A DNA stretch of 28,894 nt from a virus. Below are positions 19 through 18,607 of the stretch, piece by piece (position 1 is the stretch's first letter; each line of letters opens with the position of its first letter). A program made the position numbers and the translations under genes. Below the pieces are notes generated by a model. It saw nothing but the letters and a program-made list of their open reading frames with translations, ran no database searches and was not told where the DNA came from. The stretch lies in IMG/VR virus record IMGVR_UViG_3300045974_000391, positions 1 through 28,894 of that record. One strand, given 5' to 3'.

Positions 19-279
19 TTAATTTGACCCCTCCCCCCCGTCTTCTAGCTTTGGGTAGACCATCAAATGAAATGGACTGAAATCTAAAATTAATTTTGTT
101 GCTTGTTGTAATTTATTTTCTATTTCAATATCATTATCACTTGATAGTACGTTTGCAACATTTGCAATAAGTTCGCAAGTAAAATATTGATTACCCTGGT
201 CGTATGCCAGCCACTCTGTCCACTGTGCAAAAGGATCGAATGGATTGTCAGATGTTGTTAATAAGCCTTTATTATCCAT
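19..279 (-). CDS. Hypothetical protein, last gene of the RNA polymerase-like operon
   Basis: I do not recognise this 86-residue protein. It is acidic, has no membrane segment or signal peptide, and its central part (around residues 50-70) looks helical. The start codon overlaps the stop of the RNA polymerase-like gene as TAATG, so translation is probably coupled to that gene, and this chooses the start. Only 18 bases of the window remain after its stop, and they show a C-rich run on the coding strand but no terminator. By position it belongs to the transcript that carries two nucleases and the polymerase-like protein. It could be a small partner of that polymerase, but only position supports this. 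Confidence 0.75.
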   Translation of the reverse strand: MDNKGLLTTSDNPFDPFAQWTEWLAYDQGNQYFTCELIANVANVLSSDNDIEIENKLQQATKLILDFSPFHLMVYPKLEDGGEGSN

Positions 280-3020
280 TAATCACCTTGATTGATACGC
301 ACAACAGAACTAACTGAAATGCCTAAAATACTAGCAATTTCATTATATGTGTAGTCACCACTTAATAATAATTGTTTAGCACGTTGCTTTACGTTATTAG
401 GAATTTCTTTTCCACTATGTGGCATAAAACGATCACGTATTTCTTGACCAGTCAGTGCTAGTAGTATGGTGTTGATAACATTACTTGAAACAGCACCAGT
501 CTCTATTGCTAACCACTCATCCTCACTCAGGTGGATAGCAGGACGTTCTGCTTTGACACGCATGCGTGCTGTTGATACAGCATAACCTTTATATTTCTTA
601 AACTTATCTTTGTTTGCTTTAAGGTTAGGGTCTTTGAGCTTAGCCTCATCAATAATACGATTGGCTAATGTCATGGCTCTACGTTCATGTGGTTTTGCTT
701 GAACAATCAATTGAACTTTAGCAAGCAAGCTTTCAACTGCTGCTTTCAACGCAATCTTAGCATGAGCATCCATCTTTTGAGTAGGTATGTTTACTGCTTC
801 AGCCCTAGCCTTATTAGCCATATCCTTGATTGCATTTGCATGGGCACCATAGATACTCTCCATAAACGTACCACTACTCAGAGCCATAGCGTCTGGAGTC
901 TCATCCATTTTTGTAGACGTCTGCTGTGCTACAGCGATACGTTCTACTAGATTACCATCCTTATCTAGTTCTTTAAAGCGATACTTCCTGTTAGATGGTA
1001 TGTATGATAGCCGCCCAGTCTTAGGATCAATGATAGAACGTTTACGTTCATCTACCCACTCTGTCGATTTTGCACGTGAAACCAATGTGCTAGATCCGCC
1101 GCCTGGTTGACCATTTGGTTTAGGTTGGTACTTATCTTTCAACTCTTGAATGCCATGATCAATCGCAGATTGTTTGTAATTCAGCTTGTGTTTCTCTGCA
1201 TCAATGACAACCATTGAATGTCGTACTGCTCTAACAATTTCAGGTAACTTTGCTTTGCGTAGGGTCATGTCTGTGATCAAGTTAGACACGATGCCCATCT
1301 CAATCTGCTTTCTGTGTTCAGATAATACGGGCATCCCTTCAAAGAATGGATACGACGCCTTGTTATCAAAATTAAGAAGCGCTGGGATGGCTTGTTCTGT
1401 TCTGATAGACCCGTCCCTATTAGGAATAACTATTACACTATCCCCATCAAAGTCAGCACCTGACAGCATTTTGGCTACGTTAGAGTTGATGCCGATAGCA
1501 TCTCGGGCCATACCCGTTGTGTCAAGCCCCTTACCTAGTACGCGTCTAGCATCGCGGTTCCTATTGTTTACAACTAGTTGCGGAATTTCAAATTTGCCAC
1601 CGTGCGGGTGACGTATCAATACAACATGTTCGCCATCTTTATATTTAGGCGCGTAAACTTCATTATCTTGTAATGAGTTAATAGGAACGATAATCGCCTG
1701 TGTTTGCCCTGGCATAGGGGCTGCTTTCAATTCACGGGCAGCAGTGTCGGCTGACTCTGCAAAATTTAATAGCAAGTGCCGACGTACTTCTCCGTTACCC
1801 ACCCCCCGTATTTCTTTTAATTTCTCTTCTTGATGCGTAAGCGCCAAGCCCAACTGTTGTCTCGCTAGTTCGCTTGGTTGCTTGGATAAGAACTGACTTG
1901 ACAGACGGTTAGCCCAGTCATCCCAATCCCCCTCCTCTGAAACAATGTTAATAGGAGATAACTTGGTGACCCCATGGTCATCGTACTTCACCTGTCGGCT
2001 GATGTGAGCGCCAAAGGGGTTCCCCGGGTCATCTTTTATTTTTTTCATTGCTTCTAACGGACCTTTAGCTCTGTCCTTCGATGTATTATATCGAACATCT
2101 ATGCCTGGGGGAAGATCCGGGTTATAAACAGCAACACCCTTCATGAAATGTCCCGGTCCTACTTGAATACGAACTTGTGCATGGTGATTAGCACCAAGCG
2201 ACAAATCTTTTTTGCCAGGTCTAATCTCGATGAGTCCGTCTTTAGTTGCGCCTTCATCATCACTATATGTGAACTGAACACGTTTCATAGCCAGTGGCTC
2301 AGGGGGCTCAATGTCATTGTAAGACATCCCCCCGTTTACACTGTACTGGATCGGTGTTCCGATTTCATAACGATGAGCTATTAGATCCCCCTTGGTTACA
2401 TCCTTGGGAAGTAATACTTTGTACTTTGTTAAATGTCCACTGCCAGGCTGCTTGATCTTGATATATTCAAGATGGGCCCCCTCTTCTTTCAGCTTCTCGA
2501 TAGCTAGGTCTAGTTTTGAGCGAGTGATGCCGAACTGTGTTTCAACGCCAAGCCCAACATCGAGGTACACACGCTCTTTTAATGAAGTACGAAGAGCATC
2601 TGTGGTCTTCTCAAGAATCTGATACTGGCGATCTGTTCTGGGTTTAAGCCATCCTCGGACTGTTCCCGCAGGAACTTTCATACGCTTGGCAATGTTTTCC
2701 TCGCCGTATCCCCGTTCCTTAAGTTGGTTAGCCATAGATACATTGGCTGCTATCTTAGCTTGTTTGTTAAGGCTCAGAATGTTTCGTAGACCCGTAACAT
2801 TCGTTCCAAGATCTGCCGCAATCTCAGTCTGTGCATAACCTTTGGATTTAAAATAACTAACTGCGGCAGAGAAGTTCTCTTCTGATCCGAATGGATCTTC
2901 TACCTCCCCCCAGGGTAATTTGCCCTCTCGGCGGAGGCGCTGATATGGAACTAGACCAGTCCCCCACCCTTGTCTACCGGATCGTTCCCTGACACCACTG
3001 TGTTTCATTGGGATTGTCAT
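279..3020 (-). CDS. DFDGD (two-barrel) RNA polymerase-like protein with helix-turn-helix segments
   Basis: The 913-residue protein carries GADFDGDSV, with DFDGD at residues 523-527. This is the metal-binding signature of the second double-psi barrel of multisubunit-type RNA polymerases and of single-chain relatives such as YonO of SPbeta and the crAss-like phage polymerase. About 45 residues before it lies a strand pattern with RHP (VVLIRHPHGG) that resembles the beta-prime segment preceding the catalytic loop. Residues about 50-125 hold two helix-turn-helix-like segments (AQTEIAADLGTNVTGLRNI and ENIAKRMKVPAGTVRGWLKP). The last 30 residues hold a third (YNEIASILGISVSSVVRI). The start overlaps the upstream nuclease stop as ATGA. 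The DFDGD motif is seen; polymerase activity is inferred. A DNA-dependent RNA polymerase for phage promoters is my leading idea, and an RNA-templated enzyme is the alternative. Confidence 0.72.
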   Translation of the reverse strand: MTIPMKHSGVRERSGRQGWGTGLVPYQRLRREGKLPWGEVEDPFGSEENFSAAVSYFKSKGYAQTEIAADLGTNVTGLRNILSLNKQAKIAANVSMANQLKERGYGEENIAKRMKVPAGTVRGWLKPRTDRQYQILEKTTDALRTSLKERVYLDVGLGVETQFGITRSKLDLAIEKLKEEGAHLEYIKIKQPGSGHLTKYKVLLPKDVTKGDLIAHRYEIGTPIQYSVNGGMSYNDIEPPEPLAMKRVQFTYSDDEGATKDGLIEIRPGKKDLSLGANHHAQVRIQVGPGHFMKGVAVYNPDLPPGIDVRYNTSKDRAKGPLEAMKKIKDDPGNPFGAHISRQVKYDDHGVTKLSPINIVSEEGDWDDWANRLSSQFLSKQPSELARQQLGLALTHQEEKLKEIRGVGNGEVRRHLLLNFAESADTAARELKAAPMPGQTQAIIVPINSLQDNEVYAPKYKDGEHVVLIRHPHGGKFEIPQLVVNNRNRDARRVLGKGLDTTGMARDAIGINSNVAKMLSGADFDGDSVIVIPNRDGSIRTEQAIPALLNFDNKASYPFFEGMPVLSEHRKQIEMGIVSNLITDMTLRKAKLPEIVRAVRHSMVVIDAEKHKLNYKQSAIDHGIQELKDKYQPKPNGQPGGGSSTLVSRAKSTEWVDERKRSIIDPKTGRLSYIPSNRKYRFKELDKDGNLVERIAVAQQTSTKMDETPDAMALSSGTFMESIYGAHANAIKDMANKARAEAVNIPTQKMDAHAKIALKAAVESLLAKVQLIVQAKPHERRAMTLANRIIDEAKLKDPNLKANKDKFKKYKGYAVSTARMRVKAERPAIHLSEDEWLAIETGAVSSNVINTILLALTGQEIRDRFMPHSGKEIPNNVKQRAKQLLLSGDYTYNEIASILGISVSSVVRINQGD

Positions 3021-3571
3021 AGATCATCTTCCTTCATTAGGATGCTTACACTTTCAACGATCCTGACCATTACTTTTCTTACAGCATCTGGCTCAGGGTT
3101 AGCTATATCAACATCTACGCCGTGGTATAAGCGCAAATCAAACTTGATGTTATCTGGATCTATCATATATTGTAAACAGAACAAAGCTGCGTATAGCATC
3201 AGCTGTAACATATTCCCACCAGAATCACCGGTCTTGAGATCGAAGATCCGTAACCACTCCCCGTCGAATGCAATAGAGTCGCACGTTCCGTAACAGTATG
3301 GACTATGGAACAGCACTACCTCTGTAGACATCCTGTAGCCAATAGAGTCGTTGATATATGTATTTATGGCTTGCTTATCTTTGGGCATGTGAACACCCAG
3401 ACGTATCAGTTTAGCTGCCACATCATGGAGCTCAGAACCACGTGCAGCCGAACGATGATTCTTGTACGTACGCTTTAGCTTGTCTATATCGTAACCAAGC
3501 CAATGGTACTTGCTTGGACTAAGGAAGGCGTGCCCGTCGCCGAGTTTCTGATATCTCAGATCGAATTTCAT
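3017..3571 (-). CDS. PD-(D/E)XK nuclease, Cas4/RecB-like phage exonuclease family
   Basis: The 184-residue protein shows the RecB/Cas4-type PD-(D/E)XK layout: GSELH with H49, GTCD with D98, the core IFDLKTG with D111 and K113, then the QLMLYAALF helix with Q123 and Y127. Such proteins cleave DNA with Mg2+ or Mn2+ and in phages serve replication or recombination. The N-terminal segment (SPSKYHWLGYDID, residues 18-30) followed by a basic helix is a pattern I associate with many phage replication-locus nucleases. The chosen ATG lies inside the end of the preceding nuclease gene, in another frame, with a GAAGAGG ribosome site a few bases upstream. The 53-base overlap is long for this genome but is needed to include the N-terminal motif. 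Its stop overlaps the polymerase-like gene start. A function in end processing is inferred. Confidence 0.8.
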   Translation of the reverse strand: MKFDLRYQKLGDGHAFLSPSKYHWLGYDIDKLKRTYKNHRSAARGSELHDVAAKLIRLGVHMPKDKQAINTYINDSIGYRMSTEVVLFHSPYCYGTCDSIAFDGEWLRIFDLKTGDSGGNMLQLMLYAALFCLQYMIDPDNIKFDLRLYHGVDVDIANPEPDAVRKVMVRIVESVSILMKEDDL

Positions 3572-3851
3572 TCATAACCTCTTCACCGTTCTCTGGGCTA
3601 ACAAACAATCCATTCCAAGATACATAGTGTCCTTGGTTAGGTCGTCTGGATGAACGCCGTGTTCGTTTAAACTCAAGATCTTTCCAGTAGGTAGATCCAT
3701 CGTCAAACAAGCAGTTCATTGTTGTATCAGGTATACCCTGTGTCTGTTGTGGATCATTAGCTGTTACTCTGCACACACCGGCGTATTCAGCCAGCAACTG
3801 TGCAATAAATTTTTTCTTAAATGTTTTTTCTAATGGAATTTTATTTTGCAT
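3519..3851 (-). CDS. VRR-NUC-like endonuclease (PD-(D/E)XK superfamily)
   Basis: I start this gene at the ATG at 3851 because a GAGG ribosome site lies just upstream. The longer open frame to 3932 runs into a promoter-like region. The 110-residue product has GIPD (D42), then YWKDLEFKR with E60 and K62, then a Q in PNQGHYV (Q73) and a hydrophobic strand with GLFVSPENGEEV. This is the order expected of VRR-NUC domains, small nucleases of phage replication modules that resemble Holliday-junction resolvases. It is the first protein gene after the candidate structured RNA and heads the nuclease and polymerase-like operon. Substrate and structure specificity cannot be read from the sequence. Confidence 0.7.
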   Translation of the reverse strand: MQNKIPLEKTFKKKFIAQLLAEYAGVCRVTANDPQQTQGIPDTTMNCLFDDGSTYWKDLEFKRTRRSSRRPNQGHYVSWNGLFVSPENGEEVMNEIRSEISETRRRARLP

Positions 3852-3868
3852 ACAGAGTTCCTCAACGA

Positions 3869-3893
3869 AAAAAATATAACATGTTAATATAAT
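3869..3893. promoter_or_regulatory. Palindromic promoter-like site, possibly bidirectional
   Basis: A perfect 10-base palindrome TAACATGTTA (3877-3886) is followed on the plus strand by TATAAT (3888-3893) and on the minus strand by TATATT. Its ATAACATG half matches the conserved upstream block of the minus-strand promoter-like repeats elsewhere in the window, but the spacing to TATAAT is one base longer. A plus-strand start would fall at about 3899, the foot of the closing helix of the candidate RNA. A minus-strand start would serve the nuclease operon. Neither has a recognisable -35 box. Confidence 0.35.
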
Positions 3894-4186
3894 CGAAAGA
3901 GTTACAAGATAGGGACTGCTGTCAGCATACAACGAACCCGAAAACCATGACGGAAACGGGGACGTGAATTAATGGACATTGCTGCATGTGAGGAGCCAGA
4001 TTAATCTGGAACCAGGCTCAACGTCTTGCGACGGAGCGACTCAAGCCTCAAGCACCGAAGTGACGATCAACAAACCGAAGCAGTCGATAGGGCGAGTAAA
4101 GTAACCCGAAGGTTAGGCGCAGTCTCTTCCCGGTAAGGGGAAAGTTGGGTGCACGGCAGCGAACAGTATATCTTGTAACTCTTCCG
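3894..4186. ncRNA. Candidate structured RNA, about 290 nt, family unknown
   Basis: No gene fits this interval. Its two ends pair perfectly over 15 bp (3897-3911 with 4169-4183), with two more pairs beyond a mismatch. Inside are further possible helices: GCTGTC near 3920 with GGCAGC near 4155; CGACT at 4037-4041 with AGTCG at 4082-4086; GACGT at 3961-3965 with ACGTC at 4021-4025; and local hairpins AACC/GGTT and CAC/GTG. Strand is unresolved. Read on the minus strand, the last two hairpins have c(UUCG)g tetraloops, which favours that strand, the direction of all the genes. A TATAAT box just outside the left end favours the plus strand. It lacks the tRNA-like ends of tmRNA and the conserved segments of RNase P RNA, and I cannot match it to group I, group II or HEARO RNAs. 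Confidence 0.5.
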
Positions 4187-4193
4187 AAAATTG

Positions 4194-4226
4194 AAAAAGA
4201 TAACCAATGTTTTAAGTTGGTTATCT
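4194..4226 (-). terminator. Rho-independent terminator after the replication operon
   Basis: Perfect 10-bp inverted repeat AGATAACCAA / TTGGTTATCT (4198-4207 and 4217-4226) with a 9-base loop. On the minus strand it is followed by TTTTTC. It lies about 20 bases past the helicase stop and would end the replication operon. On the plus strand a weaker UCUCUUCU tract follows, so it may work in both directions. The minus-strand loop contains AAAACA, as in the other terminators of the window. Confidence 0.75.
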
Positions 4227-4250
4227 CTTCTACTATATACCATGTTATTT
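4226..4250 (-). promoter_or_regulatory. Promoter-like repeat, copy A
   Basis: On the minus strand this reads ATAACATGG, one base, then ATATAGTAGAA. It matches the seven other copies except for TATAGT in place of TATAAT and loss of the CC after AGAA. It overlaps the stop codon of the helicase gene and abuts the terminator hairpin, so a transcript from it would begin in that hairpin and run into the candidate RNA and the nuclease operon. Confidence 0.5.
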
Positions 4251-5429
4251 CAAAAACTGGCGTTCATTAAAATTCTTTTTGTTTTTCAGGGCTTCAAGTA
4301 TGTGCGTATCTATATCACTACTAGTTTTGAATATGTAGTAATATAATGAAGTGAACGGACTGTCTAGTCGGTCTATGCGGCCTGCAGCTTGCATCATTGC
4401 CCTGTAAGAATAGTTCATACTCCAGAACACTATCGTGTCTGTAGTGGTACAGTTCCATGCTTCTGCGCCCGCAGCGTATTGAACAAGATAAATCCACTCG
4501 TCAGACGTCGGAACTGGATCATGTTTGTGGCCGTTGTATTCGGCTATCTCACTCCAGGGAGCCCAATCACTCTTTATGAAGTCCAACTCGTAGTCGAAGT
4601 TATAAAACACAATTAGTTTTCTGTGCTTTTCTAAAAGATGCATCAGTTCTGCTATTCGACTATCCCGTATATTGCAGGCCTTGCGCATGAGATAACAGGC
4701 TTCTGCTGCATTCTTTATAGGCTCGTCCGTCCAAGGATTCCATCGCTCTTCAGCAATAGTCTTGTATTTGAGTTCGTCATATTCAGTATCGATATGCATA
4801 TAATGTTTAAGTTTTTCCTCTCCGTAATTAGGAATGGGAACTAATAACTGATACCTATGATGTTCCAGCTTCGGTACATTATTATATCTGATTATCTTCG
4901 GGAAGCTAAGATACTGATGATAAACTACATGCTCCAGCAAGAAGCTTCGACGAGAGTCATAGAACCCGTTAGCCAGGAATATGGGTACGTAATCAATCCA
5001 GGCGTCACCAGGAGTTGCTGTGAGCAACAGGAACTGGTTATACTTAGTTACTTTAAGGAACGATTTAACCCAGGCGCCAGACCCTACAATACGTTGCTCG
5101 TCGAACAGAAAGAAAGCATTCTTGACTTTGTCATACTTGTGCAGATTGTTCCAGGAGTCAACCGTGACTTTTACATTCGGCTGCATCCCGATAAGTAGCC
5201 AGGTGAGTTCTTTGTCCCATTCGTGTTTGTCACGCTTAGCTGCTGGCGTGATAATGTATAGATCCATGGGTTTTGTGAATGGGACATGTTCGAACTCAAC
5301 GCCACCACATTTACGGACATAATAGACCAGTGAGGTCAAGGATTTCCCTGACCCCACTGTTCCGTACAATATCGAGCCATTGCGCAGCTTGTCAATAGCT
5401 TCTAACTGTCCTTGCTTAAGCTTGACCAT
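4245..5429 (-). CDS. Superfamily 2 DNA helicase (SNF2/DEAD-like)
   Basis: The 394-residue protein has a Walker A loop GTVGSGKS (K29), a Walker B region LFDEQR (DE at 110-111), motif III LLLTATP (137-140) and motif VI QAAGRIDR (347-354) with its arginine fingers. This is a complete short SF2 helicase resembling SNF2-type phage helicases, which move along or remodel DNA at forks or during recombination. No extra nuclease or zinc domain is visible. The start overlaps the end of the upstream probable ssDNA-binding gene by 14 bases without a strong ribosome site, suggesting translational coupling. It is the last gene of the replication operon, and a terminator follows directly. Its role at the fork or in recombination is inferred from the family and neighbours. 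Confidence 0.87.
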   Translation of the reverse strand: MVKLKQGQLEAIDKLRNGSILYGTVGSGKSLTSLVYYVRKCGGVEFEHVPFTKPMDLYIITPAAKRDKHEWDKELTWLLIGMQPNVKVTVDSWNNLHKYDKVKNAFFLFDEQRIVGSGAWVKSFLKVTKYNQFLLLTATPGDAWIDYVPIFLANGFYDSRRSFLLEHVVYHQYLSFPKIIRYNNVPKLEHHRYQLLVPIPNYGEEKLKHYMHIDTEYDELKYKTIAEERWNPWTDEPIKNAAEACYLMRKACNIRDSRIAELMHLLEKHRKLIVFYNFDYELDFIKSDWAPWSEIAEYNGHKHDPVPTSDEWIYLVQYAAGAEAWNCTTTDTIVFWSMNYSYRAMMQAAGRIDRLDSPFTSLYYYIFKTSSDIDTHILEALKNKKNFNERQFLK

Positions 5430-13537: not shown

Positions 13538-13581
13538 TTTTTGGTTCTCCTTATGTGGGTTGTTTGGTGCGGATAAGATGT

Positions 13582-13606
13582 GGTTCTATTATATCCCATG
13601 TTATTT
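13582..13606 (-). promoter_or_regulatory. Promoter-like repeat, copy B
   Basis: Minus strand: ATAACATGG, one base, then ATATAATAGAACC. TATAAT lies at 13588-13593. It overlaps the stop codon of the upstream gene, with no terminator between, and leads to the two small genes at 13537-13047. Confidence 0.72.
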
Positions 13607-14255
13607 AGAAAATCATTTTAGGCAAAGGATCAACAGAAAGCACCACAACTGGCAACGTATCATCCTTAAGACGGGGGCTGAGCTTAAACACGATAGGGCC
13701 ATACGTCCACCCGATCTGTCCACCGCCACTAATATGCTGCAGACCAAGTTCATCGCAGTAATCGTCCATGGTTGCCATCATCTGCCCGAGGATTTGGTAG
13801 TTCAGGTTCTGACAGACTTTATGAATCTTTTCTACGCTGGAGATAAATGATTGGCCTGTTGTGTTATCTAGGCAGTAAGCGTTCGGCTGGACAAGAAGCT
13901 GCTCACCAGGAGGAATCCTGAAATCATTGTCGACACTGTCCTGCATGATGCGTGCTTCGGCATCTTCTAGAGCCTTCGGCGGTAAAGCCGTACGTAGATC
14001 CTTAAGAGCGCCTTTAGTCATATCGTAAGCTCCAAGAAGGGAATCAAACCGGCGAGCATCTCGCACGTTAGAAATTATGAGCAGTCCACTGGCTACTGTG
14101 AACATGATGACTGCAGGAGTGTAGGCCTGCGCATGCTCTTGCATATTGCCCTCTACAGGCCTATCCTTGAGCCTTCGAGTAGCTAACACAGCGCTAACGA
14201 CCGAACCAGCGTACAGTCCGATCGCGATCGCAGTCGTAACGTTAGATATCCGCAT
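13605..14255 (-). CDS. DUF6353-like membrane protein, distant paralog
   Basis: The ATG at 14255 is chosen for its GAGG site; the frame is open further but without a site. The 216-residue product has two hydrophobic segments, at about 5-28 (TTAIAIGLYAGSVVSAVLA) and 45-65 (TPAVIMFTVASGLLIIS). A cytoplasmic part follows with LGQMMATMDDYCDELGL and GGGQIGWTYG, then a last strand ending PLPKMIF. The same order (two helices, a conserved helix before ELGL or FDV, a GxxxGW turn, a closing strand) is found in the protein at 11522-12397. The two look like diverged copies, though identity is low by eye. It ends the four-gene transcript from promoter copy C, and promoter copy B overlaps its stop codon. 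Confidence 0.65.
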   Translation of the reverse strand: MRISNVTTAIAIGLYAGSVVSAVLATRRLKDRPVEGNMQEHAQAYTPAVIMFTVASGLLIISNVRDARRFDSLLGAYDMTKGALKDLRTALPPKALEDAEARIMQDSVDNDFRIPPGEQLLVQPNAYCLDNTTGQSFISSVEKIHKVCQNLNYQILGQMMATMDDYCDELGLQHISGGGQIGWTYGPIVFKLSPRLKDDTLPVVVLSVDPLPKMIF

Positions 14256-14595
14256 GGGTCCTCTTTTGAATATCTTTAATAAAACCCGTAAGGTAACCCC
14301 GCAGAGCAGTAACGACAATTCCCGGCATTTTCCAGGAGCTAAATGTCTTAAAGCTTTCAGTAGTAACCTTTACAAGCGTGAACGCCCCGTTAGCCTTGTG
14401 CGGGTCCATCGACGCGACGACCACCAAGTTTTCCCGCTCGGAATAGATAACGTACCGATCTGTGCATCCGTGCACAGGTGTAAGGGAATCAAGGAGAAGC
14501 TCAAATGTCCGCTCAAACTCTCCATGGATCTTTTCCATAGTTGTGTCAACAACTTCGAGACTGTCAACATAAGCATCAAACATTTCTTTTGTCAT
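14242..14595 (-). CDS. Hypothetical protein
   Basis: I do not recognise this 117-residue protein. The ATG at 14595 forms a TAATG overlap with the upstream stop, which decides the start in the absence of a good ribosome site. The N-terminal third looks like a long acidic helix (residues 5-40). The rest alternates strands and helices, with RYVIYSERENLVVVASMD and a C-terminal helix ending GYLTGFIKDIQKR. No membrane segment is seen. Fourteen bases at its end overlap the next gene. It shares a transcript with two other unknown soluble proteins and the DUF6353-like protein, which suggests a common, unknown job. Confidence 0.65.
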   Translation of the reverse strand: MTKEMFDAYVDSLEVVDTTMEKIHGEFERTFELLLDSLTPVHGCTDRYVIYSERENLVVVASMDPHKANGAFTLVKVTTESFKTFSSWKMPGIVVTALRGYLTGFIKDIQKRTHADI

Positions 14596-14900
14596 TATTC
14601 TACCCACGCGTCGGAATTTGGGTCGGTCGGATTGTGGCGCTTGCGATCTTTCTTCATTCGGGTGATGTTCACTTTCTTTTTTTGAAGAAGGTCCAGGCGC
14701 TTTTGCAGATGAAGAACCTTAGGGCTGTTAAGAACTTCCAAAAGTGGGTTATCGCCGACAGCCATGAAGATATCCGATTCAACTTCTTCGATAAGGACTT
14801 CGACCTGTTCAGCCGGGGATAGTTTTTCGGACTTGATCGGTTTATACATGGTTTGAACGTTGCTAACAACGCGGACCATCTTACGCGATTTGTGATTCAT
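14595..14900 (-). CDS. Hypothetical basic protein
   Basis: The 101-residue protein is basic at both ends and acidic in the middle (QVEVLIEEVESDIFM, residues 32-46). It then has a long basic helix (LHLQKRLDLLQKKKVNI and following, 63-87) likely to form a coiled coil or bind nucleic acid. The start at 14900 has an AAAGGTG site and overlaps the upstream gene by 20 bases. An internal ATG at 14879 is the alternative. No family is recognised. It contains no cysteine pair or zinc motif. Confidence 0.62.
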   Translation of the reverse strand: MNHKSRKMVRVVSNVQTMYKPIKSEKLSPAEQVEVLIEEVESDIFMAVGDNPLLEVLNSPKVLHLQKRLDLLQKKKVNITRMKKDRKRHNPTDPNSDAWVE

Positions 14901-15549
14901 TTTTCACCTTTTTCACCCGGGTTTTTTTGGCCTTTAGAATTTTGACTTCTGGTTCAGCAGTGAGAGCTTCCATGCGCGAAGGTACGTCGAGCTGGCGTAA
15001 AGCAGCCTGTTCAGGTTTAGAAAGAACACTGTAAGTAGCCAAAGCTTTCTCAATGTCAGCTTCTCCAGATGCTCCGGTGTGAGCGATGTTCACTATTAAT
15101 TCGGATTCGTCTGGAGCATCATTCCGTGCGGTCCTTACTGGCGATGCTACATCAAAGAGGCGATTATCAATGGCACCAAGTTCGATCTGAGCGTCACAAA
15201 GGTTCTTCGCTGCAACCATAGCGTTCTTTAGTTCGATTTCGGCCAAGGTAGCCTTTGCTTCAGAGAAGACATTAACCAGCTTGTCCTGTTCAAATTTTCT
15301 CTTATTTCCTGATGCGCCAGCGATGAAGATAAGAGTCTGACCGGTGGAATTGCGGACCGTTTCAGAGTAGGTGTTTGGGAGGGAATGAAGAACGTCGATG
15401 TGATTGGTAACGCTGATAAGATCGCCATTAGCCTGGCGAGTTGAAACGATAATCTCGACTGTAAAGTTCTTGCTGTCGAGGTCAACATGCTTGCGTTCGC
15501 AAACCGAGCCAACATAAGCTGCGATGATCTTAGTGATACGGTGTAACAT
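14881..15549 (-). CDS. Hypothetical protein, head of a four-gene transcript
   Basis: I start at the ATG at 15549, seven bases after AAGGAG; an ATG six codons upstream would place that site inside the gene. The 222-residue protein has an N-terminal mixed region (residues 1-80) with strands such as FTVEIIVSTRQ and TLIFIAGASG, a central helical part (85-120), and a tail rich in lysine ending in LKAKKTRVKKVKN. I recognise no family. The lysine tail is repetitive (KAKKTRVKKVK) and could bind nucleic acid or a phosphate-rich surface. A long leader of nearly 180 bases separates it from promoter copy C, unlike the 30-60 bases of most other units. Confidence 0.65.
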   Translation of the reverse strand: MLHRITKIIAAYVGSVCERKHVDLDSKNFTVEIIVSTRQANGDLISVTNHIDVLHSLPNTYSETVRNSTGQTLIFIAGASGNKRKFEQDKLVNVFSEAKATLAEIELKNAMVAAKNLCDAQIELGAIDNRLFDVASPVRTARNDAPDESELIVNIAHTGASGEADIEKALATYSVLSKPEQAALRQLDVPSRMEALTAEPEVKILKAKKTRVKKVKNESQIA

Positions 15550-15727
15550 TGGATAACTCCTTGTCATGGTTAGGATATGGTATCTCGTTGGTAATCGAGA
15601 TTTAGTACGGACTATATTACCGTGCGGTATGTAGTATTGTGTTTCTTCTGCGATCCTCCATAGAAAGCCGAAAAAAAAATAGAATCCAAGAGGAGCTCTA
15701 GACTGGTTGTCGAGCTGCTAACTGATG
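15550..15727 (-). promoter_or_regulatory. Long leader with two hairpins and a T run
   Basis: This non-coding leader holds, in transcript order, a 5-bp hairpin AGCTC/GAGCT, a run of nine T (plus-strand A run near 15671-15679), a GGAGG without a start codon, and a perfect 6-bp hairpin ATCTCG/CGAGAT (15582-15601) about 32 bases before the start codon. It could carry an attenuator or a translational control site. The T run lacks a strong stem directly before it, so I do not call a terminator. Confidence 0.35.
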
Positions 15728-15752
15728 GGTTCTATTATATCCCTTGTTATTT
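15728..15752 (-). promoter_or_regulatory. Promoter-like repeat, copy C
   Basis: Minus strand: ATAACAAGG, one base, then ATATAATAGAACC. TATAAT is at 15734-15739. It directly follows a terminator and drives the four-gene unit 15549-13605. Confidence 0.72.
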
Positions 15753-15758
15753 TCGCGG

Positions 15759-15786
15759 AAAAAACAATCCGATGTTTTGGATTGTT
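15759..15786 (-). terminator. Terminator with shared loop
   Basis: AACAATCC / GGATTGTT, 8 bp (15763-15770 and 15779-15786). The minus-strand loop is AAAACATC and six T follow. It ends the 69-residue gene at 15798-16007. The loop and inner stem are the same as at 16960, 17373 and 17693, while the outer stem pairs differ. Confidence 0.8.
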
Positions 15787-15797
15787 GGGATTTTTTG

Positions 15798-16007
15798 TTA
15801 CTGTTTCTCTATGATTAAGAGGGCTGGGCGACAGTTGTTATTCATTTTTCTGATCTTGTTTTTAAGATCGTGAACAAACAGGACTGGTTCTGCTGTACGG
15901 CCGTTTAGTTCGGCTTCGATTAACATTTGAATCTCTTTTGCGGTATCTTCGTTGCGTTTTGCGCTGGCGTGGATAGTGAGCATTTCTTCTCTGGTTAGAG
16001 TGTTCAT
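15798..16007 (-). CDS. Small hypothetical protein
   Basis: The 69-residue protein starts after AAAAGGAG and sits alone between promoter copy D and a terminator. Residues 1-35 are predicted helical and polar (LTREEMLTIHASAKRNEDTA). The rest is basic with a KNKIRKMNNN segment and ends in a hydrophobic strand (PALLIIEKQ). There is no membrane helix. No family is recognised. The isolated promoter-gene-terminator setting suggests it is expressed on its own terms. Confidence 0.65.
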   Translation of the reverse strand: MNTLTREEMLTIHASAKRNEDTAKEIQMLIEAELNGRTAEPVLFVHDLKNKIRKMNNNCRPALLIIEKQ

Positions 16008-16048
16008 TTTGTATTTCTCCTTTTAGTGAGGGTGGCTAGGGTATGTGT

Positions 16049-16073
16049 GGTTCTATTATATCCGGTGTTATTT
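16049..16073 (-). promoter_or_regulatory. Promoter-like repeat, copy D
   Basis: Minus strand: ATAACACCG, one base, then ATATAATAGAACC. TATAAT is at 16055-16060. It starts eight bases after the stop of the microprotein gene and has no terminator before it. Confidence 0.7.
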
Positions 16074-16080
16074 TCGCGGA

Positions 16081-16152
16081 CTAGAATCCCAGCCAGGCCA
16101 TGATCCAGAAGACTAAGGCGATAAGCAACATAATAATCAAAAGTATCCACAT
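16081..16152 (-). CDS. 23-residue single-pass membrane microprotein
   Basis: A short open frame starts with ATG nine bases after AGGAG (in TATAGGAGAAAC), stops with TAG, and codes for 23 residues. Nearly all are hydrophobic: MWILLIIMLLIALVFWI followed by MAW and LGF. The ribosome site overlaps the stop of the upstream holin-like gene, so translation is likely coupled. No charged residue is present. Length and composition fit one membrane helix, as in small lysis or toxin-like peptides or a regulatory partner of the neighbouring membrane protein. The good ribosome site and the tight fit between two features support it as a real gene. Confidence 0.6.
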   Translation of the reverse strand: MWILLIIMLLIALVFWIMAWLGF

Positions 16153-16164
16153 ATTTAGTTTCTC

Positions 16165-16512
16165 CTATAACAACAGTTCAATGAGTCTGTTAATTTTGTC
16201 TTGCAGCTCTTTATTTGTTTTGTCGTACCCGTTGAGATCTTCAATCGTTTTTCTAGCTGCGGCAATCTTCTCGTCTGCTACTACTGGTCCCATCACGTGG
16301 CCGGATGTTTCGATAAGATCAATATATGCATATGTTACTGCTTTTATTGTTTGTATCTTATCGTTTATTACGTACGTTTTTAGTCTTTCTTCCATAGCTT
16401 TTTTGAGGGTTACTTCCCGCAGCCAATTAACTGTGGGGACGAACGCAACAATTATGCATGTGATTCCTGTTGCCGCGATTATTAATAGCAGCATTGTATC
16501 TACAGCGTCCAC
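16165..16512 (-). CDS. Membrane protein resembling LL-H-type holins
   Basis: The 115-residue protein starts with GTG six bases after AAAAGGAG. Residues 6-30 form one membrane helix (MLLLIIAATGITCIIVAF). A basic turn (LREVTLKKAMEERLK) follows, then a soluble helical domain with IKAVTYAYIDLIE, DEKIAAARKTIEDLNG and a final helix INRLIELLL. This order (one N-terminal helix, then AVxxxEq, a K-rich helix and a closing IExxL helix) resembles the LL-H holin family, which accumulates in the membrane and opens it. The match is by layout only. A separate, clearer holin lies at 18631-19125, so this protein may instead be an antiholin or an unrelated anchor. The 23-residue microprotein is coupled to its 3' end. 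Confidence 0.6.
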   Translation of the reverse strand: MDAVDTMLLLIIAATGITCIIVAFVPTVNWLREVTLKKAMEERLKTYVINDKIQTIKAVTYAYIDLIETSGHVMGPVVADEKIAAARKTIEDLNGYDKTNKELQDKINRLIELLL

Positions 16513-16523
16513 GGTTTCTCCTT

Positions 16524-16700
16524 TTAGTGTTGACGGCGGATTATGAAGAAGAGTAGTTCAACAACGAGCTCGACCGACTTGAGCATAATACAATTGAAAG
16601 TTTCTTTCTTTACGTGTTCTCCCTGAAGCATCTTGTACATCTTGATTGAGTCTTTTAGATCTCCATATTTGAACTCTAGATCTTTAAAAGAATTTTCCAT
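16524..16700 (-). CDS. Small hypothetical protein
   Basis: The 58-residue form starts with the ATG at 16700, two bases after the upstream stop; a GTG at 16712 would overlap it. Neither has a strong ribosome site, so coupling is likely. The N-terminal half is acidic and basic in alternation (FKDLEFKYGDLKDSIKMYK). The C-terminal part is a hydrophobic helix (LKSVELVVELLFFIIRR) that could reach the membrane. No family is recognised. It sits in a run of four small genes after the terminator at 16960. Confidence 0.6.
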   Translation of the reverse strand: MENSFKDLEFKYGDLKDSIKMYKMLQGEHVKKETFNCIMLKSVELVVELLFFIIRRQH

Positions 16701-16702
16701 GG

Positions 16703-16924
16703 TTATCGCCACTTTATAAACTGGTCAGGGAATCTCGTTGAGGAGTAACCGTATTTAGTAACTGTTACAGTTCCCCATAGGCCTTCATTATATATGCCTT
16801 CGACAGTTGCCTGGAAATCGACAATAACTTCGTCGGCTGTTCCGCTGTCAACGATTTTGCGAGCGTCCATAATTTCTTTCATGCTGCTTATCATCATCTT
16901 CTTTACAACTTTTTCTGGTGCCAT
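16703..16924 (-). CDS. Small hypothetical protein
   Basis: The ATG at 16924 follows AAAAGGAG; an in-frame ATG upstream lies in the terminator. The 73-residue protein has a basic helical start (PEKVVKKMMISSMKEIMDAR) followed by strands (EVIVDFQATVEGIY and WGTVTVTKYGY). No family is recognised. It is the first gene after a strong terminator with twelve T, with no promoter-like repeat between. The four genes 16924-16081 therefore need read-through from promoter copy E or another start that I cannot see. Confidence 0.62.
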   Translation of the reverse strand: MAPEKVVKKMMISSMKEIMDARKIVDSGTADEVIVDFQATVEGIYNEGLWGTVTVTKYGYSSTRFPDQFIKWR

Positions 16925-16947
16925 TGCGTTTCTCCTTTTAGGGTTAC

Positions 16948-16981
16948 AAAAAAAAAAAACCAATCCGATGTTTTGGATTGG
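16948..16981 (-). terminator. Terminator with shared loop and 12-T run
   Basis: CCAATCC / GGATTGG (16960-16966 and 16975-16981), minus-strand loop AAAACATC, then twelve T. It ends the gene at 17002-17298. Unlike the others in this series, it is not followed by the promoter-like repeat. Confidence 0.82.
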
Positions 16982-17001
16982 GGTTGATATTGCGGGTAGT
17001 G

Positions 17002-17298
17002 CTATATGACGAGGGGTTCGTCGTCGATATTTGGTTCTTGCTGTTTCTTGTTAAAGTTGGCATAGTCGGCGAAGTCGTTGTTGACGATGCTTTCGGCGAA
17101 GGCTGTTCCTTCTTTTTCAAATTCTGCTTGTAATTCTTTGTCGTTGACAAAGTCAAAGAAGCTGCGCATGTACATTCGGGCGATGGGCTTGCGGAATGCG
17201 TACATGATTGCGATGATGAGAGCCTGGGCGATAATAATGCCTAAGGTTTCTCCTATTGCGATTACGATGATGAGGATGAATATGGTGCTTGTGTTCAT
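17002..17298 (-). CDS. Small membrane protein
   Basis: The 98-residue protein starts nine bases after AAAAAGGAG. Residues 5-35 are strongly hydrophobic (FILIIVIAIGETLGIIIAQ and on to IIAIMYAF) and could form one long or two short helices. A basic patch (RKPIARMYMR) follows and then an acidic, soluble, helical tail. Positive charges right after the membrane part suggest that the tail is inside the cell. No family is recognised. It forms its own unit with promoter copy E and the terminator at 16960. Confidence 0.68.
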   Translation of the reverse strand: MNTSTIFILIIVIAIGETLGIIIAQALIIAIMYAFRKPIARMYMRSFFDFVNDKELQAEFEKEGTAFAESIVNNDFADYANFNKKQQEPNIDDEPLVI

Positions 17299-17335
17299 TT
17301 TTATTTCTCCTTTTTAGTGGGTGGGTAGGGTATGT

Positions 17336-17360
17336 GGTTCTATTATATGCCTTGTTATTT
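17336..17360 (-). promoter_or_regulatory. Promoter-like repeat, copy E
   Basis: Minus strand: ATAACAAGG, one base, then ATATAATAGAACC, continuing into ACATACCCTACCCACC. TATAAT is at 17342-17347. Confidence 0.75.
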
Positions 17361-17365
17361 TCGCG

Positions 17366-17394
17366 AAAAAAACTAATCCGATGTTTTGGATTAG
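17366..17394 (-). terminator. Terminator with shared loop
   Basis: CTAATCC / GGATTAG (17373-17379 and 17388-17394), minus-strand loop AAAACATC, then seven T. It ends the gene at 17411-17608 and is directly followed by promoter copy E. Confidence 0.8.
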
Positions 17395-17410
17395 GGGATT
17401 GCGGGTGGTA

Positions 17411-17608
17411 CTATTTGATGTGACTTGTATAGTCTGTGGTGTATTTGCGAATGTTGCGTTTCATGCGGGCGAATTGCCGGGGCGTGATTCCTTTGGGGGT
17501 TGCGAGTTGTCTAATGGTTTCTTGGATTGCTCCATAGATGAATCCGATTGTGAATAATGTTGCGAATGTTATTACGTATGCTTTTAGTAAAGCTTTTATT
17601 AGTTTCAT
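17411..17608 (-). CDS. Small membrane protein with basic tail
   Basis: The 65-residue protein has one membrane segment at about 10-30 (AYVITFATLFTIGFIYGA) and a strongly basic C-terminal half (PRQFARMKRNIRKYTTDY). It follows AAAAAAGGAG and stands alone between promoter copy F and a terminator. The basic tail should lie inside the cell and could bind lipid or nucleic acid. No family is recognised. In plan (short helix plus charged tail) it resembles the products of the neighbouring units, but without visible sequence similarity. Confidence 0.65.
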   Translation of the reverse strand: MKLIKALLKAYVITFATLFTIGFIYGAIQETIRQLATPKGITPRQFARMKRNIRKYTTDYTSHIK

Positions 17609-17655
17609 TGTGTTTTCTCCTTTTTTAGTAGGTGGATATGGTGAGTAGGGTATGT

Positions 17656-17680
17656 GGTTCTATTATATACCTTGTTATTT
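17656..17680 (-). promoter_or_regulatory. Promoter-like repeat, copy F
   Basis: Minus strand: ATAACAAGG, one base, then ATATAATAGAACC, continuing into ACATACCCTACTCACC. TATAAT is at 17662-17667. Confidence 0.75.
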
Positions 17681-17686
17681 TCGCGG

Positions 17687-17714
17687 AAAAAACTAATCCG
17701 ATGTTTTGGATTAG
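17687..17714 (-). terminator. Terminator with shared loop
   Basis: CTAATCC / GGATTAG (17693-17699 and 17708-17714), minus-strand loop AAAACATC, then six T and promoter copy F. Hairpin, loop and the following TTTTCGCG-type stretch are almost identical to the unit at 17366-17394. Confidence 0.8.
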
Positions 17715-17725
17715 GGTGGTTCTTT

Positions 17726-17977
17726 TTACATTTCGAGTTTCTCGAGTTCTTTTTTATGTTTATAGATTTGATCTGCTAAGTCTTTGATCTTCATATCAAT
17801 AACTTTGAGGGTTTCTTTGTAGGCTTCGAGCTGTTCGGCTGGTAGACTGATATGCGGGGCGGCTTCAATTATTGCTGATGCTCCTTTACGGGCATAACAA
17901 TGTTCTAACAAACTTCTTGATAAAATATCTATTTCGTTTAGGTGATAATCTGTTTCTGTGTCAAATATTATTTCCAT
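17726..17977 (-). CDS. Small coiled-coil protein
   Basis: The 83-residue protein is acidic at the start (FDTETDYHLNEIDI) and ends in a long charged helix (QLEAYKETLKVIDMKIKDLA and beyond, residues 49-83) with heptad-like hydrophobic spacing, so it probably forms a coiled coil. It has no membrane segment. Its own ribosome site (AAAGGA) is weaker than that of the 15-codon frame just upstream, which it overlaps by ten bases in another frame. Translation may thus depend on ribosomes ending that short frame. No family is recognised. Confidence 0.65.
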   Translation of the reverse strand: MEIIFDTETDYHLNEIDILSRSLLEHCYARKGASAIIEAAPHISLPAEQLEAYKETLKVIDMKIKDLADQIYKHKKELEKLEM

Positions 17978-18015
17978 TTTAGTTTTCCTTTATATGGGGT
18001 AGATGAGTGGTTCAT
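17968..18015 (-). CDS. 15-residue upstream frame, possible leader peptide
   Basis: An ATG with the strong AAAAAGGAG site used by the other units opens a 15-codon frame (MNHSSTPYKGKLKWK) that ends in TAA inside the next gene, with a ten-base overlap. Leader and first codons (AAAAATGAAC) match the start of the gene at 17002-17298. It may be a coupling leader peptide or the remnant of another unit's start codon left by recombination. Confidence 0.4.
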   Translation of the reverse strand: MNHSSTPYKGKLKWK

Positions 18016-18052
18016 TTTTGTTTCTCCTTTTTAGTGGGTTGGTAGGGTATGT

Positions 18053-18077
18053 GGTTCTATTATATACCATGTTTTTT
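18053..18077 (-). promoter_or_regulatory. Promoter-like repeat, copy G
   Basis: Minus strand: AAAACATGG, one base, then ATATAATAGAACC, continuing into ACATACCC. TATAAT is at 18059-18064. The first bases differ from the other copies (AAAAAACATGG in place of AAATAACATGG). Confidence 0.72.
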
Positions 18078-18113
18078 AAAAAAAATAAAGCCAAGTTATT
18101 TACCTGGCTTTAT
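18078..18113 (-). terminator. Terminator of the 130-residue gene
   Basis: ATAAAGCCA / TGGCTTTAT, 9 bp (18085-18093 and 18105-18113), then a run of T on the minus strand. Its loop differs from the AAAACATC series, so this is a different hairpin in the same position relative to a promoter repeat. Confidence 0.8.
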
Positions 18114-18122
18114 AGTATTAAT

Positions 18123-18515
18123 TTAGTCTCGAATGAGCCCGAAGGCCTTCGATATGATGGCGTGTCCGGAGTGTTCAAACACGAGTATGATGCATACGGT
18201 CGCGATCTTTGCTGCGATCTCTATGTTCTTTGCATCACGGGAAGCTTGGGCTTTTTGGCGTTCAATTCTGATTGCGGCCATCTGCTTAAGATCTTCAACG
18301 ACGATCGTGTGACCGTGCTTGACATCATCCTGAGCATATTCGAGTTCTTTAAGCTCTACTGCTCGAGAATGCGCGTTCAGGGCGGTAATCTGTGCGAGGA
18401 TCTTGGTATAAGAATCTGATCCGGGGTCGACGTTGGAAAGAGCTGCATGTAAGCGCAGTGATTCTTCCTTGCGGAGTGTTTCTGTTGATGGAAACTTTTG
18501 TTTCTTGGGTGTCAT
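18123..18515 (-). CDS. Phage protein with C-terminal membrane helix
   Basis: The ATG at 18515 follows AAAGGA; the frame is open to 18659 but only across promoter copy H. The 130-residue protein is charged and helical for about 100 residues (AAIRIERQKAQASRDAKNIE near the end of that part). It finishes with a membrane segment, ILVFEHSGHAIISKAFGLI. I recall similar small phage proteins in Firmicutes, with a charged helical body and a tail helix containing FExxG and SKAxGxI, but no role is known to me. It forms its own unit between promoter copy H and the terminator at 18085. Confidence 0.66.
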   Translation of the reverse strand: MTPKKQKFPSTETLRKEESLRLHAALSNVDPGSDSYTKILAQITALNAHSRAVELKELEYAQDDVKHGHTIVVEDLKQMAAIRIERQKAQASRDAKNIEIAAKIATVCIILVFEHSGHAIISKAFGLIRD

Positions 18516-18572
18516 GGTTTGTTTTCCTTTTCTTGCTGGTGGATATGATGTATATTGGGGTGGGTATGGTAT

Positions 18573-18597
18573 GGTTCTATTATATCCCATGTTATAG
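18573..18597 (-). promoter_or_regulatory. Promoter-like repeat, copy H
   Basis: Minus strand: ATAACATGG, one base, then ATATAATAGAACC. TATAAT is at 18579-18584. It lies 33 bases after the holin stop and is the first copy after the tail and lysis operon. Confidence 0.72.
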
Positions 18598-18607
18598 TAA
18601 CCACTCC

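Follow-up and report, generated by a model that had tools for sequence, protein, structure and literature searches.

GOLLD and ROOL are large, folded, phage-borne RNAs of elaborate secondary structure and unknown function (PMC12286853). In phage SPbeta, the phage RNA polymerase YonO is reported to start transcription ahead of a non-coding RNA that carries no annotation and is followed by yonK and the yonJ exonuclease gene, and the sequence of the YonO promoter was left open (PMC5467207). The locus described here lies in a viral DNA stretch of 28,894 nt (IMG/VR record IMGVR_UViG_3300045974_000391, positions 1 to 28,894), the whole of which is referred to as the window. It resembles GOLLD and ROOL in that a large RNA with an elaborate secondary structure appears to be carried by a phage, and it provides a candidate for a new RNA family in phages that possess their own two-barrel RNA polymerase.

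The gene-free gap and its covarying fold

The gap between the end of the helicase gene (4245) and the likely start ATG of the following gene (3851) measures 393 nt and is the longest of the window, as the initial annotation had noted; the second-longest is about 230 nt. The accompanying remark that no protein frame fits there held in part: the mechanical ORF 3519-3932 enters the 3′ end of the RNA, and the start of the gene is most likely at 3851, which is preceded by the ribosome-binding site GAGGAA. Within the gap, the segments 3897-3911 (AAGAGTTACAAGATA) and 4169-4183 (TATCTTGTAACTCTT) are perfect reverse complements, in agreement with the 15-bp closing helix proposed earlier, and simple counting gives an inverted repeat of 15 perfect pairs, with both arms inside 400 nt, a chance expectation of about 0.01 over the whole window. 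On the minus strand, this helix (P1) extends to 19 bp (4187-4169 with 3911-3893) with a mean pair probability of 0.98. The minimum free energy of the 301-nt stretch was -102.2 kcal/mol on the minus strand (z -4.7 against shuffles) and -99.1 on the plus strand (z -4.6), and on both strands none of the shuffles folded as well as the real stretch. Because the z values are so similar, fold energy alone does not decide the strand.

A helicase-based scan of viral contigs yielded a close relative, IMGVR_UViG_3300049483_000059 (L002), whose helicase is 84% identical; like the window, it is a contig fragment. At the equivalent genomic place it carries a homologous RNA (L002:5264-5576) that is 73% identical, and this RNA, folded alone, adopted the same architecture on the gene strand with a z of about -4.7, as in the window. 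In the two-sequence alignment all 77 consensus pairs were kept, and 14 of them showed compensatory changes on both sides, whereas shuffles gave an expectation of 7 and slid partners yielded no more than 4. The combination of 100% of cells paired and 14 double changes was reached by 0 of 500 shuffles and by no slid structure; the scoring was carried out on a structure derived from the same two sequences, which favours that structure somewhat. P1 was proposed from the window alone and yet shows changes of its own relative to L002: in a check of its covariation that had been set beforehand, every P1 pair was kept, with three double and two single-side changes. Several of the inner helices covary as well. 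Because there are two sequences at 73% identity, many conserved pairs are invariant, and P1 is better established than the inner arms.

According to the consensus fold, the energy is better on the minus strand (-86.3) than on the plus strand (-76.2), and the U-G and G-U pairs (for example, alignment columns 5-311 and 11-305) would become A-C on the opposite strand; for these two reasons the RNA was assigned to the minus strand, where all window genes of known family are also found. Pairs are kept by compensatory change between homologs, here two sequences, as in conserved structured RNAs, and these compensating mutations show that the fold has been maintained. A real structured RNA on the minus strand is therefore highly probable from the two sequences, and the earlier view that the gap is unlikely to be filler is upheld.

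The structured domain comprises about 295 nt (3893-4187, minus strand). Its ends are joined by P1 (5′ strand, 19 nt, 4169-4187; 3′ strand, 3893-3911), inside which P2 pairs ACUGU (4163-4167) with GCAGU (3915-3919) and has an invariant CCC bulge beside its 3′ strand. P3 pairs GCUGC (4156-4160) with GCAGC (3981-3985) and closes a multi-branched core (3986-4155), whose hairpin arms number about five or six and include the block GUCACUUCGGUGCUUGAGGCUUGAGUCGCUCCGUCGC, identical in L002. The 3′ arm (3920-3978) contains the invariant CCGUUUCCGUCAUGGUUUUCGG and shows compensatory changes at its base. The cUUCGg loops annotated on the minus strand are present, with three motifs instead of the two first counted; one hairpin loop reads UUCG in the window and UUAUU in L002.

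The operon, its leader and the promoter-like motifs

The genes bordering the RNA all lie on the minus strand. The operon opens with the gene of a VRR-Nuc-like nuclease (3519-3851), which shows 30% identity (E 3e-13) to the VRR-Nuc protein of Microbacterium phage Count, whose own match to PF08774 falls slightly short of the cutoff. It is followed by a Cas4-like exonuclease gene (3017-3571; phrog_3953, E 1e-55) and the gene of a two-barrel (QDE-1/YonO-type) RNA polymerase (279-3020; phrog_4291, E 5e-278), whose SGADFDGD motif is invariant across 15 aligned relatives; the PDB, searched by sequence with the aligned polymerases, returned short matches only, at helix-turn-helix positions. Upstream lies a DNA helicase gene (4245-5429; phrog_62), the 3′ end of which overlaps a promoter-like motif. 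Streptomyces, Gordonia, Rhodococcus, Microbacterium and other phages share, with some variation, the order helicase, gap, VRR-Nuc, exonuclease and polymerase.

The promoter-like motif ahead of the RNA, ATAACATGGTATATAGTAGAAGAGAT (4223-4248, minus strand), is identical in L002. A terminator-like 14-bp hairpin with a U-tract was found in the predicted leader (4194-4230, minus strand), and its counterpart in L002 forms with an internal insertion and one mismatch. The U-tract, located between the motif and the RNA, could stop transcription before the RNA. On the other side of the domain, the linker AACATGTTATATTTTTTTC, conserved in L002, and the ribosome-binding site occupy 3858-3886 (minus strand). 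When the leaders of both phages were folded, the predicted partner of the linker and ribosome-binding site was the opening part of the coding region and not the RNA, and the ribosome-binding site fell within a local hairpin. The RNA formed a separate domain, without pairs to the ribosome-binding site above a probability of 0.1; this predicted absence of a cis effect comes from one thermodynamic calculation, which covers secondary structure.

A promoter-like motif, AACATGG.ATATAATAGAAGG, was found just before VRR-Nuc in many related phages, as exemplified by AACATGGTATATAATAGAAGGGATAGAAT in Rhodococcus phage ReqiPoco6 compared with AACATGGTATATAGTAGAAGAGATAACC in the window, and it is a candidate for a promoter motif common to this whole family of phages. 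Using a weight matrix built from four seeds, which are included among the 81 loci, the best match in the expected stretch exceeded all ten shuffles in 63 of the 81. In the relatives (L112-L191, L100-L111) the motif lies mostly 870-980 bases ahead of the RNA polymerase match, and it is commonly followed by a hairpin at the predicted 5′ end of the transcript and by a U-tract that immediately adjoins the ribosome-binding site; this terminator-like arrangement stands between the putative promoter and the gene. When the motif and the start codon were placed automatically in 55 loci, 52 leaders measured 7-95 nt (usually 40-95 nt), the very short ones probably being wrong start calls; the value of 193 for Caudovirus D_HF4_2 arose because an earlier TATAAT-like site was taken. 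A T4 run is present in 45 of the 55 leaders. The 5′-end hairpin occurs in many of the relatives' leaders and also in the window and L002, where the leaders reach 380 and 426 nt, respectively, because the RNA is inserted between the U-tract and the ribosome-binding site.

Since the window shares its motif and hairpin with the relatives, the gap is best read as an operon leader that carries a lineage-specific RNA domain, and not as free space. Synteny and the motif comparison make it quite likely that the RNA belongs to the leader of the nuclease/exonuclease/RNA polymerase operon, that is, to the 5′ leader of a coding operon, the location typical of riboswitches and cis-acting leaders. The initial annotation had placed the element in a gap between operons; its helicase upstream and nuclease and polymerase downstream are found as stated, and what changes is the gap, which is now read as the inside of an operon leader behind a family-wide promoter-like motif.

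Ahead of small genes in the interval 13.6-18.6 kb, the minus strand carries seven near-identical copies of a 26-base motif, ATAACAWGGNATATAATAGAACCACA (starts at 13604, 15750, 16071, 17358, 17678, 18075 and 18595; span 13578-18603), as a rule with a ribosome-binding site after them. An eighth, weaker copy stands in front of the RNA and scored 20.1 bits, behind the seven early-gene copies; next came a copy of 14.7 bits within the DNA polymerase gene and the best unrelated site at 10.9, and the highest of 20 shuffle maxima was 18.3. A similar set, CTATAATGAGAACC, is present in D_HF4_2, intergenic and on the coding strand only. We infer that the early-gene copies are candidate promoters. The phage two-barrel RNA polymerase might in turn read them, which is put forward more guardedly because the motifs also contain a TATAAT box, with the host enzyme as the alternative. 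The same part of the window contains four near-identical terminator-like hairpins (15758-15795, 16954-16991, 17367-17404 and 17687-17724), for example CTAATCC-AAAACAT-CGGATTAG with a T-run, three of the four directly upstream of the early promoter copies.

Searches for known families and further homologs

No Rfam family reached the threshold anywhere in the window, a permissive search of the RNA region gave only two weak matches, both to unrelated families, and ARAGORN found no tRNA or tmRNA in the window. The earlier statement that the element matches no group I or II intron, HEARO, tmRNA or RNase P RNA is in line with these searches. For group I and group II introns there was no model match, and the element lies between genes and is not inserted in one; a tmRNA, with tRNA-like ends and a tag frame, was not found by ARAGORN. 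RNase P RNA and HEARO/omega RNA were discarded for want of an Rfam match, with no IscB/IsrB-like gene among the neighbours scanned, and the Rfam covariance models of GOLLD and ROOL did not match either. For riboswitches, too, Rfam gave no match, and no alternative pairing with the ribosome-binding site rose above 0.1 in either phage.

DNA similarity to the element was not detected in the phage and plasmid collections. Exact-pattern scans of viral contigs with the conserved blocks returned L002 and chance matches only; most of the chance matches inspected were in open reading frames, and none had the remainder of the RNA. One scan of genome contigs gave 67 matches, 0 of which were confirmed by the covariance model, and model R1, run on loci of relatives amounting to about 1.7 Mb, on 105 complete records, of which a few were repeats, and on about 800 genomes, revealed no third homolog. 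Because the covariance model is narrow, being built from two sequences, these negative searches say little about distant relatives.

Candidate equivalents and further features of other phages were also considered. Long inverted repeats in the relatives' gaps were rejected, as most of those read were inverted short repeats. The gap of one helicase relative (L055:5910-6142) has a 27-bp inverted repeat around about 180 nt, with a fold z of -7.2 and a promoter-like TTATAGAAGGGA in both arms. The leaders of Lactococcus phages P092, P162 and CHPC971 were rejected for lack of a sequence match to the RNA. These leaders (L104:715-995, L312:720-1002 and L105:815-1048) exceed 200 nt, carry a promoter-like TATAATAGA and a 5′ hairpin with a U-tract, and precede a single-strand annealing protein gene; the 5′ strand of the hairpin could alternatively pair with a distal segment. 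In SPbeta (L307:4154-5834, minus strand), a 1.7-kb non-coding stretch between yonN and yonK has a match to DUF3800-VIII RNA (47.5 bits) and a sub-threshold match to skipping-rope. Origin-like regions with TGGCCAA, AAGTGGCA or GGGACA repeats and AT-rich tracts, absent from the window, lie upstream of VRR-Nuc in several relatives (L101:5442-6108, L103:5184-5621, L108:6212-6663, L111:4761-5474 and others).

Possible roles of the RNA and comparison with known systems

Our leading proposal, to which we give about an even chance, is that an autonomously folding RNA domain of ~295 nt was acquired inside the operon leader and serves as an accessory RNA, most likely in trans; for action in trans rather than in cis, taken by itself, the scales are equally balanced. 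Transcription would start at the phage promoter-like motif (4248-4223, minus strand), and the transcript would pass the 5′ hairpin and U-tract before the RNA domain is made ahead of the coding region. By joining both ends, the 19-bp P1 would let the domain fold on its own beside the ribosome-binding site, and processing, by host RNase III for instance, could plausibly take place at P1 and would perhaps release the RNA, leaving the remaining transcript to be translated. Two points favour action in trans as an accessory RNA: the RNA is predicted to fold apart from the ribosome-binding site, and the relatives run the operon without it. The position of the RNA would allow action in trans and in cis to be separated, by deleting the RNA and following the operon and the polymerase.

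The main rival, control of the nuclease/exonuclease/RNA polymerase operon by a cis-acting leader, is kept as a possible, though distinctly less probable, explanation; a control role in general had been suggested in the initial annotation. With similar reserve, the RNA may bind the polymerase, the nuclease or a ligand and thereby alter termination at the U-tract, mRNA stability or translation. Such a role fits its location, downstream of the operon's promoter-like motif and ahead of the first start codon, control at the leader is plausible because a hairpin with a U-tract beside the motif is common in the family, and the ribosome-binding site is itself predicted in a local hairpin in both phages. 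These points are offset by relatives in which the same operon works with leaders of about 40-95 nt that lack the RNA, and by a predicted ensemble in which the RNA and the ribosome-binding site do not pair. Replication, also suggested earlier, is retained as an unlikely, minor rival, in the form of an origin RNA or primer, or of structured origin DNA beside the origin-like region of the relatives. In many relatives the helicase/VRR-Nuc stretch is AT-rich with the short repeats named above, and in 7 of the 11 named relatives the commonest 7-mer had a higher count than in most Markov resamples (p below 0.04). These repeats, however, lie upstream of the promoter-like motif whereas the RNA lies downstream of it, and neither the window nor L002 has them; the cumulative GC-skew minimum is about 9 kb from the gap in Scap1 and D_HF4_2, and the G-U pairs and strand bias point to RNA and not DNA. 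It is the unsupportive GC skew and the lack of a repeat-rich stretch in the window that keep replication minor, and nothing points to the packaging role that had also been proposed.

A mobile or selfish insertion, either terminal inverted repeats with filler or an ORF-less intron or ribozyme, appears very improbable. The insert is lineage-specific with inverted ends, and HNH genes often adjoin the equivalent site in relatives, but the arms differ between the two phages and yet covary, as do several inner helices, which terminal inverted repeats need not do; moreover, no intron model matched, no gene is interrupted and the element is present as a single copy in the window.

Alongside the accessory RNA favoured here, a more specific role is conceivable but doubtful, in which the RNA, produced from the leader of the very operon in which the phage two-barrel polymerase is encoded, would be a dedicated partner of this polymerase and, on binding, would tune its activity or its choice of promoters. 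6S-like RNAs occupy an RNA polymerase where promoter DNA would otherwise bind, and such a partner would be a viral counterpart of 6S RNA, with the YonO-linked non-coding RNA of SPbeta as a possible parallel; the RNA itself has no Rfam 6S match.

In comparison with described systems, GOLLD and ROOL measure several hundred nt (659 nt for a ROOL, over 800 for many GOLLD), often occur near tRNA islands and are represented in Rfam, whereas the RNA of the window has 295 nt, no tRNA nearby and no match to an Rfam model. Structured 5′ leaders and riboswitches share its location, with a promoter-like motif ahead and the first start codon of the operon behind; unlike riboswitches, it has no Rfam match, no predicted switch at the ribosome-binding site and no metabolic gene in its operon. 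The non-coding stretch of SPbeta, about 1.7 kb with its DUF3800-VIII match, does not match the model of the window RNA, and the likeness to SPbeta, a two-barrel phage RNA polymerase together with a non-coding RNA ahead of an exonuclease gene, is one of arrangement and not of sequence.
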